Shown here piece after piece: positions 14,287 through 20,950 of a stretch of DNA of 48,671 nucleotides. Below the pieces are notes generated by a model. It was given only the letters and a program-made list of their open reading frames with translations. It did no database searches and was not told where the DNA came from. This DNA is from Candidatus Latescibacterota bacterium (lineage in GTDB: Bacteria > Latescibacterota > UBA2968). The translations under genes and the position numbers were made by a program. The first letter of the stretch is position 1. Every line of letters begins with the position of its first letter. The stretch covers positions 1 through 48,671 of the forward strand of contig JAJEDY010000086.1 in assembly GCA_022821275.1 (NCBI GenBank), given 5' to 3'.

Positions 14287-15033
14287 ATGCAGATGACCAA
14301 AGCTCAAAAGCAGCAGTTTTTCGAAGATGGATATGTGCTTGTGCGTGGTGCTGTGCCAAAGTTAATGGCCGATCAAGCGCGGAAGGCTATTAACCATCAC
14401 ATGCGTTTTCGCGTGATGCAACAGGGACGAAATCCAGGGTTGAGCAACGAGCCGGTGATTACAGATTTGTTTAATAAATCGCCGCTTTGGGGTCTGTGCG
14501 AGTCGGTTGTGGGAGAGGGGAAGTTGATCCCACAACAGGGAGGTAACGTGAAGCTCAATTTTCCCGATGCAGAGGAGCGTCCACTGACGCGAGGGCATCT
14601 GGATTTGGGTGGGAAGTTGAAGGATGGGTTGCTGAGTCGCGGTATGACGCTGCTGGTGGTGGTTCTGGTCCACGATGTTCCGCGACCATATATGGGCAAT
14701 TTCTGTTTTTGGCCCGGATCGCATCGCGCTTATGAGGCGGCGTTTCAAAAGGATCCCAATTACGTGGAGACGGCAAAGGCCAATCGCCGGATTCCCGATA
14801 TCGATTTGCCGCATGGGCCGATTCAGTTTATGGGCGAGGCAGGCGATGCGGTGATCTGCCATCACCAGATGTATCACAACGGAGGTCCAAATCATTCGCC
14901 CGATATCCGGTATGCTGTGATTTTCAGACCCCGACACGTCAATGCCAGAGAAAATAGCACGGATGCGATGACCGATATCTGGCGGGAGTTTGAAGGATTG
15001 ACGGATCTGAAGGAAGAGGCGATGGCGGTTTAG
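14287..15033 (+). CDS. Phytanoyl-CoA dioxygenase family protein
   Basis: This 248-residue protein fits the PhyH family of Fe(II)/2-oxoglutarate oxygenases, which hydroxylate small organic molecules with O2 and 2-oxoglutarate. The N-terminus QQFFEDGYVLVRGAVPK is the family start. The iron motif His-x-Asp is seen as GHLD near residue 103, the distal His in the QMYHNGGPN stretch near residue 197, and the oxoglutarate-binding Arg probably in DIRYAVIF. AAAGGAG precedes ATG 14287. It is the last gene of the symporter-dehydrogenase run and is followed by a strong terminator at 15079. The native substrate is unknown; few bacterial members act on phytanoyl-CoA. Confidence 0.88.
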   Translation: MQMTKAQKQQFFEDGYVLVRGAVPKLMADQARKAINHHMRFRVMQQGRNPGLSNEPVITDLFNKSPLWGLCESVVGEGKLIPQQGGNVKLNFPDAEERPLTRGHLDLGGKLKDGLLSRGMTLLVVVLVHDVPRPYMGNFCFWPGSHRAYEAAFQKDPNYVETAKANRRIPDIDLPHGPIQFMGEAGDAVICHHQMYHNGGPNHSPDIRYAVIFRPRHVNARENSTDAMTDIWREFEGLTDLKEEAMAV

Positions 15034-15078
15034 GTATTTGTTTCGCTATGGTTCATCCAGACCGATGGATAAAAGGTT

Positions 15079-15147
15079 CCCCCCCGATGACAAGTGCTCC
15101 AGGCGAGCACTCTCCTGTACGGAGTAGTCGGGGGGGTCATTTTTTTT
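15079..15147 (+). terminator. Branched (three-way junction) rho-independent terminator
   Basis: A perfect 9-bp stem pairs CCCCCCCGA (15079-15087) with TCGGGGGGG (15128-15136) and is followed by a run of eight T (15140-15147). Inside the stem are two further hairpins: AGTGCT/AGCACT (15093-15111, loop CCAGGCG) and CTCC/GGAG (15112-15124, loop TGTAC). It lies 45 bases after the PhyH stop and should end that operon. Confidence 0.8.
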
Positions 15148-15419
15148 CCATCAGTTCACTATTCTCTCGCGATTCTGTGATGGCTTTAAGCCAGAATAAG
15201 CCAACCGCAGTCTCACAGGCGTTTCTATTGCTCCCCATTACGCTCCAATTCTGTGATGCTCTGTCATAGCTTGTCACAGCTTGTCATAGCTCCCGAGTTG
15301 ACTATCTATCATTAAACACGTATCGTTTGCTGCGGTCCGTTGGACTCGTTGATTTTTTTATTCAATTGCGCCCCTATTACGCCTCCGAAATCAAGTCAGA
15401 CAGCAGTCGGATTTGGCTG
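15148..15419. other. Non-coding gap with 10-bp tandem repeats at 15251-15290
   Basis: No gene is seen. At 15261-15290 three 10-base units follow one another (CTGTCATAGC, TTGTCACAGC, TTGTCATAGC), preceded by a weaker copy CTGTGATGCT at 15251. The 10-base spacing places each copy on the same DNA face. They lie 130 bases beyond the 3' end of the reverse-strand methyltransferase and mark the left edge of the cassette. Confidence 0.55.
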
Positions 15420-16634
15420 TCATGGCTTCTCAAACATTACAACACTCTCTCGAGACGCCACTCGTCCATATTTTCCCATCTGCTGTGCACTATTTCCACG
15501 TCTTCGCACTACTCGTATTTCCTCACAGATGAGCCCTGCTTGTTCCCCGATCTCTGCCGTGAACTCATCAACAAGGATAGCCTTACCGTCATATTGTGCA
15601 TTCCCCACGACGAACGCTGCTTTAGCTCCTTTGCGACAAACACGGGCAACTTCGCAAAGACATAAATACATGTCCAAGAAATATCCCTCTAGCATGTGCT
15701 GCATGCGCTTGTCACGTAGATCTCGGATACTGTCGCTTAAAGCCTTAGGAGACTTATATCTTTCAGCCGCTGGTCGATTCGGACGAGCTTCCGGATGGGA
15801 ATGAAACGTCTGGTATCTAAGTGCTCGATTGGCTTCCCAGTCAAGAAAGGCAAACATCAATTCGACCCCAAAAATTCGCGTGTAGTCGTGACGGTTGGGG
15901 TACGGCGGAGAAGTAATCACGGCTGAGTATTTCTCATCAGATGCCGGCATGACACGCGCATCCGCGACACGGGCTTTCCAATATCTATTGACTTGGGGAG
16001 ATATGTCACAAATATCCGACAACATCATCTCAACTTGTTTTTTTAAAAAAATCGTAACGTTCTCGGCACCATCACCTTGATTCAACCACCTTAGCCAACC
16101 TCCAGTTGCGACCGCATGGCTGAAACGTGGTATGATGGAAATCAACGCTAATCGGAAGAAGTCCCGTTCCGAGGACGAACACTTGAGATTCTCGATACTT
16201 GTCGCGACTGTGTCAAGTGCTTCAAGCCGTCCCTCTGGGAGTGCCTTGTGAACCAGTTCCGGATAGGCGCGGCTCATGGGTGTCGTGCCGTTGTGTACCA
16301 ATGTATTTTCGAGTGTTCGCCATGCTGTTTTCAATCGCTTTCGAGAGAAAGTAGCGGTCTTAGTATTAGATGCGAGAATGGCGAGCGGAGAAAGATCATA
16401 GCCGTTACTCGAAACGCCCATTTCCTTGGCCGCCAATAGCGTTGTACCTGCGCCCACGAAGGGATCAAGGATCCTATCCTGACCGTTAAGGCCCCATTCA
16501 TCAATTAACGCGTGTACGAGGTTATCGGTGAAGCTATGGGGAAATAGATACCAACGGTGAACGGCTTTCTCTTTGGCATCTTTTGGAGTCACCCAATGTC
16601 TCCACTCTGCCTGCTCGGTGGTTTGATATTTCAT
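15420..16634 (-). CDS. Site-specific DNA methyltransferase (amino-methyltransferase fold)
   Basis: This 404-residue protein carries both hallmarks of S-adenosylmethionine-dependent DNA amino-methyltransferases: DPFVGAGTT (motif I, residues 57-65, cofactor binding) and ITSPPYPNR (motif IV, 240-248, catalytic). SPPY favours N4-cytosine methylation, although adenine methylases of this branch also carry it. About 175 residues separate motif I from motif IV, unlike the common beta order (IV before I), and could hold the target-recognition region. It is the last gene of the reverse-strand cassette, 13 bases after the PIN gene, with no conventional restriction endonuclease beside it. It probably marks host DNA; an orphan regulatory methylase is the alternative. 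Confidence 0.85.
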   Translation of the reverse strand: MKYQTTEQAEWRHWVTPKDAKEKAVHRWYLFPHSFTDNLVHALIDEWGLNGQDRILDPFVGAGTTLLAAKEMGVSSNGYDLSPLAILASNTKTATFSRKRLKTAWRTLENTLVHNGTTPMSRAYPELVHKALPEGRLEALDTVATSIENLKCSSSERDFFRLALISIIPRFSHAVATGGWLRWLNQGDGAENVTIFLKKQVEMMLSDICDISPQVNRYWKARVADARVMPASDEKYSAVITSPPYPNRHDYTRIFGVELMFAFLDWEANRALRYQTFHSHPEARPNRPAAERYKSPKALSDSIRDLRDKRMQHMLEGYFLDMYLCLCEVARVCRKGAKAAFVVGNAQYDGKAILVDEFTAEIGEQAGLICEEIRVVRRRGNSAQQMGKYGRVASRESVVMFEKP

Positions 16635-16647
16635 AACCAGACCTATC

Positions 16648-17424
16648 TCAAGGAAAAGATGGAGATGACAATCCTTTACGTCTGCCTGTATGCGTAACTG
16701 TGAAGGCTTGGGGTAGTTTGATCTCGATCTCCGTTTTAAGTATCACTTCGCTGATAAGCTCATTCAACTTTTGTCGAATTTCCTCGTATCGTTGCTCCTG
16801 TGAATCACGGATATAATTCACAGTTTCTATGAGGTAGCTATCAGCTGTGATCAAATAGTTTGCTCCGGCAGCCACTGCACTTGCGTAAATAATACTATCT
16901 ATCTCGCCCATGTAAATAAGACCAACTATGCCTTTCGCCAACTCAATTACCTCATTTGTACGGTCGCTATCACTTCGCGTAATCGTAACGCCAGACTCCT
17001 CTAACATTGAGTTAAGATCGTCAATACGATCCTTGATAGCTGCTAAATCCTCAATGGCTATCCGATCTCGAATTTCCTTTGGCAAAAAATTTGACCATAT
17101 TCGATGAGGGATGCCCTCTTGAGCCATTTTTACACGTGCTTCTCCCTCCGTAATTCCAGTGAGTATCTCGATTTCTGAGACGGGTGCGTATTCGACCTGT
17201 ACATCCCTTGATAGTAACACAATCGTCTCCAAGCCTTGTAGCAGTGATTCTTTTAGAAGTTTTTCAGAAACTTTGCCAAAATGGTTTTTCAATATTGAGA
17301 CCGTTTGCTCGTCCGTAGGAAATTCAAGACCATCCTTCTTTGCGGACTCCAGACAAAGCCGAATGTAGTGTAATGTCATCGTGTCCAGAAACACTACTTT
17401 CTGGAAGGGGTACTCCTCTTTCAT
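16648..17424 (-). CDS. PIN-like domain nuclease
   Basis: This 258-residue protein shows a PIN-fold acidic pattern. It has Asp14 in VVFLDTMTLHYI, Glu84/Glu86 in PVSEIEILTG, Asp176 in GEIDSIIYASAVAAGANYL and Asp195 in ITADSYL. The GA-x-YLIT-x-D tail strand is the most typical part. These residues would bind Mg2+ or Mn2+ for RNA or DNA cleavage. It is longer than toxin PIN proteins (about 130 residues), with extra helices between the second and third acidic positions and a 60-residue C-terminal tail. Its ATG overlaps the stop of the ATPase gene by four bases (ATGA), implying coupled translation and a shared complex. In context it could be the effector nuclease of the cassette; no antitoxin-like partner of VapB type is seen. 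Confidence 0.75.
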   Translation of the reverse strand: MKEEYPFQKVVFLDTMTLHYIRLCLESAKKDGLEFPTDEQTVSILKNHFGKVSEKLLKESLLQGLETIVLLSRDVQVEYAPVSEIEILTGITEGEARVKMAQEGIPHRIWSNFLPKEIRDRIAIEDLAAIKDRIDDLNSMLEESGVTITRSDSDRTNEVIELAKGIVGLIYMGEIDSIIYASAVAAGANYLITADSYLIETVNYIRDSQEQRYEEIRQKLNELISEVILKTEIEIKLPQAFTVTHTGRRKGLSSPSFP

Positions 17425-18602
17425 GGCTGTGCATTCTCGCTATTAGTCAATTGGGGATAAAGTTCGTCTTCGATTTTGTGAAGATAGTTTTCTGTAAATG
17501 GTAGTTGTACATCAGCATCCACTTGGGCAATCGCTCGAAAACATGTTTTTACGAGTCGTCTGGGATTCGAGTAGGTGTTGGGCCGGAAGACAATATTATC
17601 CGGAAACGGGAAAATATCTCCTATTGATTCGTTCTTCTCGCTTGATCGAGCAGCCTCTATCCGTGATCTCATTAAGGCCAGTGCTTCTGAACTCGTTAAG
17701 AGATCAATATTTAATATTTGGTCAGAAATGCGCTCAATCAGCGAAGGTTCAAACTCCTTGGTGATTTCATAAGCATCGGGAGTCATTGACATGACGATCC
17801 AGAAGTCGATCTGCTCGCTTTGAGCGAGGTTTATCAAACGTTTCAGCGTTGCCAAGTAATCATGTGCAGCGCGTCTGGTGAGCCTTTTTTGAAGACCTAT
17901 TTCCTCGAATTCGTCAATGAGAAACGCAATGGCTTTAGCACTCGTTCCTTGTAAGATCGTTTTCAATATTGCGCGGAAGTAAGGTGCTTCTTCCCCCTCC
18001 GGGACCATGCTGCTGCTCTGCCTCGGTACGAAGTCCCGATATTCGAAATATGGTTTTTTCACAATCTCGGTAACGATTCGGGCAAGACAGTGGGCAATTT
18101 CTTCATCTGGCGTAATCTCCGCCTTCCTGATTGCATCCTGGAGAGGGCTTGTAATATTTTGTTGTCGGCGCGAACTAGCTATTACGGATAGATATTCTTC
18201 AAAGCTCTTTCGAAAAAGATCTCCCTGATAGGCGAACGACACATGAGGACTAACGAGTTCCCAGATGAATTTAGCAAAATTTTTGCGTCCGATAGTGCGC
18301 AACAACATATTGGCAAGGTCGTAGAATTGCACCCCTGGATTGTCGAAGTAGAATGATTTAATTTGACGGTCTGGAAAGACTTCGCTATGAAGCCATTGCA
18401 AGAGGCAGGTCTTTCCGGTTCCATACTCGCCGACGATGACGATGGCCTTGACACCGGCTCCTGTTTGATGTAAGTCGAGGAGTTCTTTCATTCGAGTTTC
18501 CAACTCATTTGGAGGCGACAATTTTGCATGGAGGGGGGCACCTGTTGCCGCTGGCTCGAAGGGATTAAAGTCAAGCCGGAGTTTTTTCAGAATATTGGAC
18601 AT
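17421..18602 (-). CDS. AAA/ORC-like P-loop ATPase
   Basis: The 393-residue protein has a Walker A motif GEYGTGKT (residues 58-65), Walker B AFLIDEFE (226-233), a sensor-1-like strand DFWIVMSMTPDA and a late NPRRLVK segment. This resembles the ORC/Cdc6-like or STAND-related ATPases of phage-defence operons (such as BREX BrxD-type proteins) and transposition regulators. The start DFNPFEPAATGAP contains an NPFEP motif often found before this ATPase core. No membrane segment is seen. It overlaps the upstream winged-helix gene by 32 bases and the PIN gene by four. It probably senses or loads onto DNA and controls the nuclease; that role is inferred. Confidence 0.8.
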   Translation of the reverse strand: MSNILKKLRLDFNPFEPAATGAPLHAKLSPPNELETRMKELLDLHQTGAGVKAIVIVGEYGTGKTCLLQWLHSEVFPDRQIKSFYFDNPGVQFYDLANMLLRTIGRKNFAKFIWELVSPHVSFAYQGDLFRKSFEEYLSVIASSRRQQNITSPLQDAIRKAEITPDEEIAHCLARIVTEIVKKPYFEYRDFVPRQSSSMVPEGEEAPYFRAILKTILQGTSAKAIAFLIDEFEEIGLQKRLTRRAAHDYLATLKRLINLAQSEQIDFWIVMSMTPDAYEITKEFEPSLIERISDQILNIDLLTSSEALALMRSRIEAARSSEKNESIGDIFPFPDNIVFRPNTYSNPRRLVKTCFRAIAQVDADVQLPFTENYLHKIEDELYPQLTNSENAQP

Positions 18603-19650
18603 GGTTATTTGTCACCTCTTGGGATTTGATAGTTATCTCTTGATGTATGCGAATATGGGAGATATAGGGACCATTTGGAGTTCTATAATACCTTCGCAAC
18701 TCTAAATTTTCCCTCTGCGGCGATGTCGCTGTCAGCGTAGCGAGGGCACGAGATGTCGGGATTAGCAAAATATGATTGGGCCATTCTTTGAGTAACCAAT
18801 CAATGGCACGAAAGAGCACACTAATCGGTTGCCTTTGTTCTACACAGCAACGAGCGATGAGATCGGAAATGGATAACAAAGTCCATTCTCCTGGAGTACG
18901 TAGAGAAAGTAGTAAGCGCACTGTTCGCAGTACAGGGGAATCAATTTCTGTAGAGAAAGGCTCTAGGCGGGATAGAGGAAACATGATTGTATCACTGCCA
19001 GCTTGTTGACAGTATTCGTCAATGAGTCCTAATTCATCACGCGCCCAGTAGCGTACGCCATATAGGATCGCAGACACACTTACAGGTGATTCACAACGTA
19101 CCGTGTAGCCTGTTGTATTATTTTCAAAAACGACCTTCCCGGTGCGAGAGGAATGGTGGCGGGTCCACTTAACGGGGAGACCCTTTTGCCGGAAGTTGGA
19201 AACGGTATCAGAACTTATATCCAAAGGCATGAAAAGATCGAAGAAAAGCGATCTGCATTGTTCGTTTTTCAAAACCAGTGCTGCAAATGGGTCTTTCGCA
19301 GCATCACATAGAGATTGATCTTCGTTGTTTGGAACTGGCTGATGTAGGAGTTTGCAGACATCAGGATCATCGTAATTGACAAGCAACATCCGTCCATCTC
19401 GTTTGAGTGCATGCAGGTGTAACAAGGTATTTCGATAGTGGTAAAGGGTAGTAGGTGAAGGAGGGGAATTACGTTGCGTAAGCGAGATGTGGTTTTCCAG
19501 CACCAGGTTGTTAATTTCACTAGCTCTAAGTCCGCTCGGAAAGTCTGCAACGGCTTTCAAAATGCGATGGAGTCCGGCAAATGAGACGGTACGCATCCAG
19601 TATTCGCTCTGTTGCAAGTTGTCTTTGCTGCGATGTTGTGGCTGTGCCAT
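18571..19650 (-). CDS. Unrecognised protein with N-terminal winged-helix-like domain
   Basis: I do not recognise this 359-residue protein as a named family. Residues about 20-95 look like a winged helix: FAGLHRILKAVADF, GLRASEINNLVL, TTLYHYRNTLLHLHALKR, then a short beta wing GRMLLVNYDD. The remainder is mixed alpha/beta with no catalytic motif I can name. The ATG at 19650 is chosen because AGAGGGG lies eight bases upstream; the frame extends to a TTG at 19734 with no ribosome site. It is the first gene of the cassette and follows a consensus promoter at 19828-19857. It probably binds DNA, as a specificity factor or autoregulator of the system. Confidence 0.65.
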   Translation of the reverse strand: MAQPQHRSKDNLQQSEYWMRTVSFAGLHRILKAVADFPSGLRASEINNLVLENHISLTQRNSPPSPTTLYHYRNTLLHLHALKRDGRMLLVNYDDPDVCKLLHQPVPNNEDQSLCDAAKDPFAALVLKNEQCRSLFFDLFMPLDISSDTVSNFRQKGLPVKWTRHHSSRTGKVVFENNTTGYTVRCESPVSVSAILYGVRYWARDELGLIDEYCQQAGSDTIMFPLSRLEPFSTEIDSPVLRTVRLLLSLRTPGEWTLLSISDLIARCCVEQRQPISVLFRAIDWLLKEWPNHILLIPTSRALATLTATSPQRENLELRRYYRTPNGPYISHIRIHQEITIKSQEVTNNHVQYSEKTPA

Positions 19651-19827
19651 GTCGGCTACCCCTCTACATCCGTGCATTTTGAAATTGTGGGGCAATACCT
19701 CGGTAGATATGTCCTCATTTGCGGCAACCCCCAAGTTATCAAAATATCGACAAAATGTTGTCCTTAGTCAAACCCGTGGTCTCCAATTTGATGAAATCGA
19801 CACCAGGACGGATAAAGTCGCACATGA

Positions 19828-19857
19828 CGTATAACAGAAATTGATATAGACTGTCAA
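19828..19857 (-). promoter_or_regulatory. Sigma70-type promoter for the four-gene cassette
   Basis: Reading the reverse strand, a perfect TTGACA (19852-19857) is followed after 18 bases by TATACG (19828-19833). Transcription would start near 19820 and leave a leader of about 170 bases before the ATG at 19650. In the same 322-base gap the forward promoter of the aldo/keto reductase points the other way. Confidence 0.6.
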
Positions 19858-19914
19858 GAGTATTTTTATTTTATCATTTTTAATTTCCGACATAGAGCGG
19901 GGGATTTTTTCGCA

Positions 19915-19943
19915 TTGACACGCGGGGTTCTGTCGTCTATTAT
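19915..19943 (+). promoter_or_regulatory. Near-consensus sigma70 promoter of the aldo/keto reductase operon
   Basis: TTGACA (19915-19920), exactly 17 bases, then TATTAT (19938-19943) gives 11 of 12 consensus matches. Transcription would start near 19950, leaving a leader of about 20 bases with the ribosome site CAGGAGGA before the ATG at 19973. Confidence 0.75.
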
Positions 19944-19972
19944 GCGAGGGGTTTTTTCAGGAGGAGATTGCG

Positions 19973-20950
19973 ATGCAGAGTAAGATATTGGGCAGAACGG
20001 GGTTGGAGGTTCCAATTGTAAGTTTTGGCACGGCATTTCTCGCTCGTGTGATGGGGGAAGATGGTCATTTTTTACCGGGCGTCGATGAAGATGTGGGTGT
20101 AGAGAATGTGGTGGCTGCTGTTGAGGCTGGGTGTACGCTGATCGATACGGCGCCGCTTTACGGGAATACTGCGAGTGAGAAAATTATTGGTCGCGCGTTG
20201 CGCGAACGCTTCGATCTGGCTGAAAAGTGTACGGTGACGACAAAAGTGGGAAGATCGGGAAGTGAATACGATTTCTCTTTCGACGGGGTGATGCAACAGG
20301 TGGAAGGCAGTCAGGAGCGGTTGGGGCTGGATGCGTTTGACGTGCTGTATATTCACGATCCAATGGATTTTCCCATGCAACAGGTGATGGCAAAAGATGG
20401 CGCGCTTGGGGCATTGCGAAAATTGCAGGATGAGGGTGTGGTGCGGTTTGTCGGTATTGCGGCCAATGATCCCGATTCAAATGGTCCGTACATTGATACG
20501 GGTGAGTTTGATGCCTCGGTGGTTCCCGATGCGTGGAGTTTGTTGAATCGGGCGGCGGATACGTTCATTTTTCCCGGTGCTGAAAAACACAATGTGGGGA
20601 TTGCGCTCGCAACACCTCTGGAACGCGGTTTGCTGGCGACGGGACCCTTGCCCGGGCATTCTTATGTGAATCGCAATTTTAGTCAGTCGGTTTTGGACCG
20701 CGTTGGGAGAGTAAAAGCACTTTGCGACGATTATGGCATTCCACTGGTGGCTGCATCGCTGCAGTGGTGTACAAGGCATCCGTTGATTGCAACGGCGATT
20801 TGTGGAGGGCGAAACAAAGAAGAGACAATTCAAAATGCCGAGGCTGGCAGTATTGAAATTCCCGAAGCGTTTTGGGATGATCTGGAGCCGTTGATCCAGG
20901 ATTGGGATCAGGAGCATGTGGTGAAGGTGGGTAAAGGCAACCACAGATGA
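19973..20950 (+). CDS. Aldo/keto reductase
   Basis: This 325-residue NADPH-type oxidoreductase of the aldo/keto reductase superfamily has a TIM barrel and reduces aldehydes or ketones. The catalytic tetrad is visible: Asp and Tyr in LIDTAPLYGNTASEKIIG, Lys in CTVTTKVG and His in LYIHDPMD. It resembles the fucose/galactose dehydrogenase-like branch (long HDP loop, VPIVSFGTAFL start). CAGGAGGA precedes ATG. The last codons (GNHR and TGA) are read from a dispersed ACCACAGATGA repeat, so the natural C-terminus may have been altered. It opens a run of sugar-acid or polyol genes. Confidence 0.9.
   Translation: MQSKILGRTGLEVPIVSFGTAFLARVMGEDGHFLPGVDEDVGVENVVAAVEAGCTLIDTAPLYGNTASEKIIGRALRERFDLAEKCTVTTKVGRSGSEYDFSFDGVMQQVEGSQERLGLDAFDVLYIHDPMDFPMQQVMAKDGALGALRKLQDEGVVRFVGIAANDPDSNGPYIDTGEFDASVVPDAWSLLNRAADTFIFPGAEKHNVGIALATPLERGLLATGPLPGHSYVNRNFSQSVLDRVGRVKALCDDYGIPLVAASLQWCTRHPLIATAICGGRNKEETIQNAEAGSIEIPEAFWDDLEPLIQDWDQEHVVKVGKGNHR

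Follow-up and report, generated by a model that had tools for sequence, protein, structure and literature searches.

A four-gene cassette encoding a winged-helix protein, an Orc/Cdc6-type ATPase, a PIN nuclease, and a DNA methyltransferase, a probable antiviral defense system at a Latescibacterota defense hotspot

Ssp systems comprise, besides their other subunits, a DNA modification enzyme and a nuclease effector. Several described systems join Orc/Cdc6 ATPases with multi-winged helix-turn-helix (wHTH) proteins, nucleases, and sometimes HerA (PMC10853773, PMC12839542): SspB is a triple wHTH protein and SspC an Orc/Cdc6-class ATPase (PMC10853773), and BrxD of BREX belongs to the same ATPase class (PMC12839542). 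Here we analyzed a 48,671-nucleotide stretch of DNA from a Candidatus Latescibacterota bacterium (contig JAJEDY010000086.1 of assembly GCA_022821275.1; hereafter, the window), in which four genes at positions 15420 to 19650 encode a winged-helix protein (WH), an AAA ATPase, a PIN nuclease, and a DNA methyltransferase (MTase). We propose, with a probability of roughly 0.7, that this cassette is a horizontally spread antiviral defense system of four proteins, which would block phages or plasmids. By analogy, the best reading is that it works like Ssp- and BREX-type systems without being a member of either. The kind of system is thus already known, and the new element would be the PIN effector and its predicted coupling to methylation.

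All four open reading frames (ORFs) were confirmed on the minus strand in the order WH, ATPase, PIN, and MTase. The tight packing described in the initial annotation is exact by ORF coordinates: the WH and ATPase ORFs share 32 bases, the ATPase and PIN ORFs share 4, and a 13-base gap separates PIN from MTase. WH begins with an ATG at 19650, and its Nitrospira homologs begin at the matching position. The consensus promoter proposed ahead of the genes was not borne out: TTGACA-18-TATACG near 19857 to 19828 was absent from the promoter scan list, and the region contained no more promoter-like sites than shuffled sequence.

The ATPase (393 amino acids [aa]; 17421 to 18602, minus strand) matched AAA_22 in Pfam (E = 2.8e-10), and its Walker A (GEYGTGKT) and Walker B (FLIDEFEE) motifs are intact, as first noticed, and largely invariant across homologs. 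Weak similarity places it near the Orc/Cdc6 class: the PADLOC BrxD model matched 10 of 12 family members (best, 8.4e-6) and the SspC model 3 of 12 (best, 7e-4), while PF10923 (BrxC_BrxD) scored 21.0 bits against a cutoff of 22.2 and covered only 37 residues. The MTase (404 aa; 15420 to 16634, minus strand) matched N6_N4_Mtase (PF01555, E = 8.4e-9), and the PADLOC type II model MTase_II covered its full length (2.7e-62, 209 bits). Motif I (DPFVGAGTT), nearly invariant in aligned homologs, precedes an invariant motif IV (TSPPYPNRHDY), and relatives of the enzyme include N4-cytosine enzymes; its predicted product is probably N4-cytosine or N6-adenine methylation. Its full-length identity is ∼25 to 26% to MTases that are partners of type II enzymes, including one of the AvaI/BsoBI family, and other members of its widespread family work in AvaI/BsoBI-type and McrBC-like systems. 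One apparent relative, an MTase match beside an "AAA family ATPase" on Cryobacterium plasmid L062, proved to be McrBC-like instead: its ATPase falls in AAA_5, a further protein shows a weak McrBC match, and the WH, ATPase, and PIN profiles match none of these proteins.

Sequence searches of Pfam, PADLOC, NCBIfam, and PDB gave no match for WH (359 aa; 18571 to 19650, minus strand). The initial winged-helix call therefore drew no support from any sequence library, but it agrees with an AlphaFold 2 (AF2) model (mean predicted local distance difference test score [pLDDT], 84.4) containing three HTH/wHTH-like modules at residues ∼24 to 91, 150 to 225, and 238 to 336. In Foldseek searches with this model the best match was FokI, which was not significant (E = 0.1); the MotA winged helix matched with a probability of 0.99, and the BpuJI binding domain stood lower in the match list. 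In a comparison with triple wHTH proteins of the SspB/DndG type, WH showed these three modeled modules, the nonsignificant FokI match, and no sequence match. On the modeled structure, WH is likely of the winged-helix fold class; kinship to any specific protein would go beyond the individually weak Foldseek matches. We predict that WH is the probable DNA-recognition or scanning subunit.

On its own sequence the PIN protein (258 aa with a large helical insert; 16648 to 17424, minus strand) fell below acceptance for Pfam PIN (E = 0.14) and had no usable PADLOC match. The assignment as a PIN nuclease nonetheless holds because 7 of 11 homologs match Pfam PIN (best, 2.4e-7), the acidic residues D14, E86, D176, and D195 noted initially are present and align among homologs, and the AF2 model (pLDDT, 88.7) finds VapC/PIN structures as its best Foldseek matches (probability ∼1; best E = 0.005). 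PIN is probably the effector of the cassette. Since PIN effectors in validated anti-phage systems have been described as RNases (PMC13092281), an RNA target is, by analogy, a real possibility; the NurA-HerA pair found in some copies of the cassette (see below) points to DNA instead. The PIN family profile also weakly matched the restriction enzyme BsoBI (E = 0.032), and a relative of the cassette MTase sits with an AvaI/BsoBI-type enzyme; we judged this match probably due to chance.

The PIN protein brings with it another account, in which the cassette is an abortive-infection or toxin-antitoxin-like device: an RNase toxin restrained by a WH-ATPase complex, with the MTase as sensor or brake, such that loss or inhibition of the complex or of DNA methylation would free the toxin and kill the infected cell. 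The VapC toxins among the nearest fold matches, the RNase activity of the validated PIN effectors, and the proposal that PIN, HEPN, and Schlafen RNases act as suicidal backups beside BREX (PMC12839542) all favor such a device. However, the PIN protein is about twice the size of VapC and carries its long helical insert, and an MTase at every locus suggests self-marking of DNA. VapBC shares the VapC-type fold with the cassette, but no small VapB-like antitoxin gene is present here, and the larger PIN protein is encoded in an operon with an ATPase and an MTase. We regard this device as a real though somewhat unlikely possibility.

Returning to the defense system proposed above, we found no match for the gene set to a named system in PADLOC 2.0, Pfam, or NCBIfam, in agreement with the initial annotation. 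Nor was the set found described in the open-access literature; supplements, preprints, and subscription papers lay outside that search, so an earlier description is possible. SspBCD(E) follows the plan predicted for the cassette, with a multi-wHTH DNA-binding protein, an Orc/Cdc6-class ATPase, a DNA modification enzyme, and a nuclease effector, but the cassette has a base methyltransferase rather than sulfur chemistry and PIN rather than SspE. The sulfur-incorporating enzymes of Ssp and Dnd (SspA/SspD, DndA/DndC) were not detected among the four proteins with Pfam, PADLOC, or NCBIfam; the similarity of the ATPase to SspC is weak, and no sequence match ties WH to SspB. BREX (type 2, with BrxD, and BREX-related HerA capture [BRC]) has in common with the predicted makeup of the cassette a methyltransferase, an Orc/Cdc6 ATPase, and a tandem wHTH protein, with HerA added in two cassette loci. 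In contrast to BREX, the insertion that carries the cassette lacks PglZ, a 1200-aa BrxC/PglY, a methyltransferase of PglX size, and BrxL/BrxHI. When the four proteins were run against PADLOC with hmmscan at E ≤ 1, PglZ/BrxZ was not among the matches listed, and the insertion holds no further gene; at 393 aa, with a weak match to BrxD as its best in PADLOC, the cassette ATPase does not correspond to the large BrxC/PglY. As for DISARM, none of the four proteins matched DrmA, DrmB, or DrmC, and the insertion carries neither a helicase nor a PLD gene. The classic markers reported missing at the outset are indeed absent (no PglZ, BrxL, or helicase in the insertion and no restriction endonuclease [REase] match in Pfam or PADLOC). 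The initial comparison to BREX and DISARM calls for adjustment, as the nearest systems by parts are those with Orc/Cdc6 ATPases (BrxD, SspC).

Orc/Cdc6-HerA/FtsK capture systems (PMC10853773) resemble the cassette in their Orc/Cdc6 ATPase, DndG/SspB-like multi-wHTH protein, nuclease, and occasional HerA, but they use REase or inactive-REase domains where the cassette has PIN; a HerA/FtsK translocase is absent from the window insertion and from 10 of the 12 other complete loci and present in two Kapaibacterium loci. Type II restriction-modification (RM) systems of the AvaI/BsoBI type have a related MTase with the S-adenosylmethionine and catalytic motifs (motif I, TSPPY), but no cognate type II restriction enzyme lies beside the window MTase, no REase match was found among the proteins in Pfam or PADLOC, and WH-ATPase-PIN stands in its place. 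Because PglZ, BrxC, the sulfur enzymes, the DISARM helicase, and a type II restriction enzyme are all absent, the cassette is not a member of the Ssp, BREX, DISARM, or type II systems.

To determine how widely the gene set occurs, we scanned one genome per species across 84,980 species with the ATPase, recovering 11 loci: a Candidatus Latescibacterota sister of the same genus, two Nitrospira, one Vicinamibacterales, two Kapaibacterium, one Ardenticatenaceae, one Thermoflexus, two Planctomycetota, and one Methanophagales archaeon. All 10 loci outside the window genus carry homologs of WH, ATPase, PIN, and MTase. Searching 393 genomes from the archaeal phylum with an ATPase profile added two distant loci (G530 and G548; G and L numbers are our handles for genomes and loci), whose ATPases are ∼27% identical to that of the window and which have all four genes in the order MTase-WH-ATPase-PIN. 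Besides the window, 12 complete loci are thus known from Nitrospirota, Acidobacteriota, Kapaibacteria, Chloroflexota, Planctomycetota, and archaea, and all 12 have all four genes, WH included. Co-occurrence in distant genomes, which the initial annotation had proposed as a check, therefore extends over at least six bacterial phyla plus archaea, rules out chance clustering of the ORFs, and, together with the lack of a named match, supports the suggestion of a possible new defense system. The family is rare. Within the window phylum (64 genomes), the ATPase was found in the window and one congeneric genome only; it occurred in at least 2 of 396 Nitrospirota genomes, and WH occurred in at least 1 of 400, 1 of 343, and 1 of 357 genomes of three other phyla, each an already known locus, with all counts across phyla being lower bounds.

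WH, ATPase, and PIN are contiguous in all 12 other loci, and the WH and ATPase ORFs overlap in 11; these three form the constant part of the cassette. The MTase is the movable part: in bacteria it comes after PIN, whereas in archaea it comes before WH, and its frame is broken in Methanophagales. Both Kapaibacterium loci have NurA and HerA genes between PIN and MTase (L032/L034:11904-14845; NurA, PF09376 at 3.6e-5; HerA, 7e-41 to a solved HerA). This mobility, and the pairing of MTase relatives with other restriction enzymes, would fit a WH-ATPase-PIN defense triad that merely shares an island with an independent, exchangeable MTase of solitary or type II-derived origin. We consider such a pair of neighbors improbable: the MTase is never missing from a complete locus, overlaps its neighbor or sits a few bases away in most, and has a tree congruent with the other three, while the window insertion contains no other restriction enzyme. 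Indeed, maximum-likelihood trees of the four proteins share their main branching, with the window and the Nitrospira pair together, Vicinamibacterales outside them, and then Planctomycetota; Kapaibacterium groups with Ardenticatenaceae and the archaea stand apart, although the placement of Methanophagales is unstable in the ATPase tree. Pairwise identities correlate among the four proteins at 0.87 to 0.95. Because this shared branching runs against the species phylogeny and unites copies from different phyla, horizontal transfer of the genes as one block is most likely. The ratio of nonsynonymous to synonymous substitutions (dN/dS) in close pairs was ∼0.06 to 0.41 for all genes, and selection on them is purifying. 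The four genes are one co-inherited unit.

The strongest evidence for the defense reading is the site of insertion. The cassette lies in an insertion at about 15042 to 19889, between a phytanoyl-CoA-dioxygenase-like gene (14287 to 15033) and an aldo/keto reductase gene (19973 to 20950). Two sister genomes are empty at this site, with G032 continuous across window positions 15041|19890 and G038 across 15043|19894, and GC content is 0.461 inside the insertion versus 0.52 to 0.53 outside. Other sister genomes carry different genes there: type I RM (hsdM, hsdS, hsdR) plus a DUF45-like gene in G034; an HsdR-like protein, Schlafen/AlbA_2, and a Fic-like gene in G033; an AriA/GajA-like ATPase and a Fic-like gene in G029; an Avs1b/Cap4-like STAND protein, an AAA ATPase, and an insertion sequence (IS) element in G037; and, in G031 (L003:1-5372), an AbiU/AIPR-like gene next to what is left of a decayed cassette copy. 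The Fic, DUF45, AIPR, IS, and G033 HsdR labels come from reading the sequence rather than from a library search. Because sister species are empty at this intergenic site or carry type I RM, Avs/Cap4-like, AriA/GajA-like, AbiU-like, or Schlafen genes, the site (window 15033 to 19973; L039 to L045) is a defense hotspot in this genus, with at least five distinct occupants and two empty alleles.

The same location bears on a nondefensive account, in which the genes would be a maintenance or transposition accessory module of a mobile element, with a TnsC/Orc-like ATPase and a DNA-binding protein, and the MTase and nuclease serving stability. The broad AAA_22 class takes in TnsC-type proteins, and the patchy horizontal distribution is what a mobile element might produce. 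We hold this account to be very unlikely, since the window copy is chromosomal and at a defense hotspot, and the insertion lacks any gene for a transposase, an integrase, replication, or partition, as well as flanking repeats that could serve as a mobility mechanism. Plasmid tblastn searches with WH, ATPase, and PIN gave nothing at 1e-5 (ATPase matches up to E = 5 were at chance level only), and viral-contig scans with ATPase, PIN, or WH found nothing; on these searches we rejected a plasmid or viral origin.

Several observations weigh against the defense system as proposed. Because the loci were collected via the ATPase, the search may have overlooked any branch that uses another ATPase; the WH fold had no significant PDB match in Foldseek; and 2 of 13 PIN copies, both archaeal, have N at D176. 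The MTase is probably exchangeable, given its relatives with AvaI/BsoBI-type and McrBC-like systems, and it could be bound less closely to the triad. In the decayed G031 copy, WH is cut to its 3′ end and PIN and MTase are deleted, but the ATPase is intact, 85% identical to that of the window, with a dN/dS of 0.21 between the two, which could mean a separate role; this orphan may reflect neutral decay or may have been kept for another reason.

A mechanism can be outlined from systems in the literature that combine an Orc/Cdc6 ATPase, a multi-wHTH protein, and a nuclease, sometimes with HerA, a template that the Kapaibacteria NurA-HerA pair fits. The MTase would mark host DNA at a short motif, while WH and the Orc/Cdc6-type ATPase would form a complex that scans DNA and recognizes it when unmarked or foreign in some other way. 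As this complex assembles or moves under ATP, it may license PIN to cut the DNA or RNA of the invader or, in an abortive response, the RNA of the host; in Kapaibacteria a HerA-NurA translocase-nuclease is added. More tentatively, and on balance doubtfully, the cassette could represent a distinct bacterial and archaeal defense class in which base methylation is read by a multi-wHTH/Orc-Cdc6 complex and PIN cuts RNA, not DNA; if true, restriction-modification logic would be joined to abortive tRNA- or mRNA-cutting immunity in one four-protein machine. Intact copies of the cassette range from Latescibacterota to Methanophagales-type archaea, but PADLOC does not see two of the four proteins, so annotation with that library would report little beyond a solitary methyltransferase and overlook the system. 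As a compact and testable case, the cassette may show how an Orc/Cdc6-type ATPase could act with a methyl mark to control a PIN nuclease, an effector type validated in phage defense only recently, and it reveals a chromosomal defense hotspot in a poorly studied group.

At the right junction, positions 19890 to 19911 (plus strand) retain the right half (AGCGGGGGATTTTTT) of the dioxygenase terminator stem-loop, by direct reading; G032 and G038 have the stem-loop CCCCTGTTC...GAGCAGGGGATTTTTT at the terminator site of the empty allele. The cassette insertion broke this terminator, and the left half was lost. Positions 19679 to 19774 resemble DNA associated with AAA_21/AAA_15 (AriA/GajA-like) defense genes at the same site in sister species, matching L041 3544-3629, inside such a gene, at 82.6% and L043 11007-11104 at 78.6%; from these matches, the fragment is likely the scar of an earlier AAA-type occupant. 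Also at the hotspot, L043:3457-7881 encodes a 1474-aa STAND protein with a Cap4-like nuclease and an Avs1b-like NTPase, perhaps a divergent Avs. Short tandem repeats of 10 to 11 bases occur inside sister hotspot inserts (L040:11583-11685 and L043:1027-1189).

Around distant copies, too, RM and related genes are frequent, in favor of the defense reading; type I genes among these neighbors are hsdM, hsdS, and hsdR. The Nitrospira L029 copy has hsdS on one side and hsdR on the other, Kapaibacterium and G530 have type IIG enzymes directly upstream, and a different type IIG enzyme accompanies Planctomycetota L038. The PADLOC type IIG RM model PDLC03630 matched the upstream gene in L032:5695-9027 and L058:505-4230, in two domains of life, and the upstream gene at L034:5695-9027, outside that scan, looks like its L032 counterpart. 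A type IIG RM gene of this kind is possibly a recurrent fifth partner of the cassette. An HmaC-type ATPase is found near L031, and PLD-helicase genes are also among the neighbors of distant copies. In contrast to these RM-rich neighborhoods, L059 has the bare four-gene set beside metabolic genes, close to the end of its stretch.

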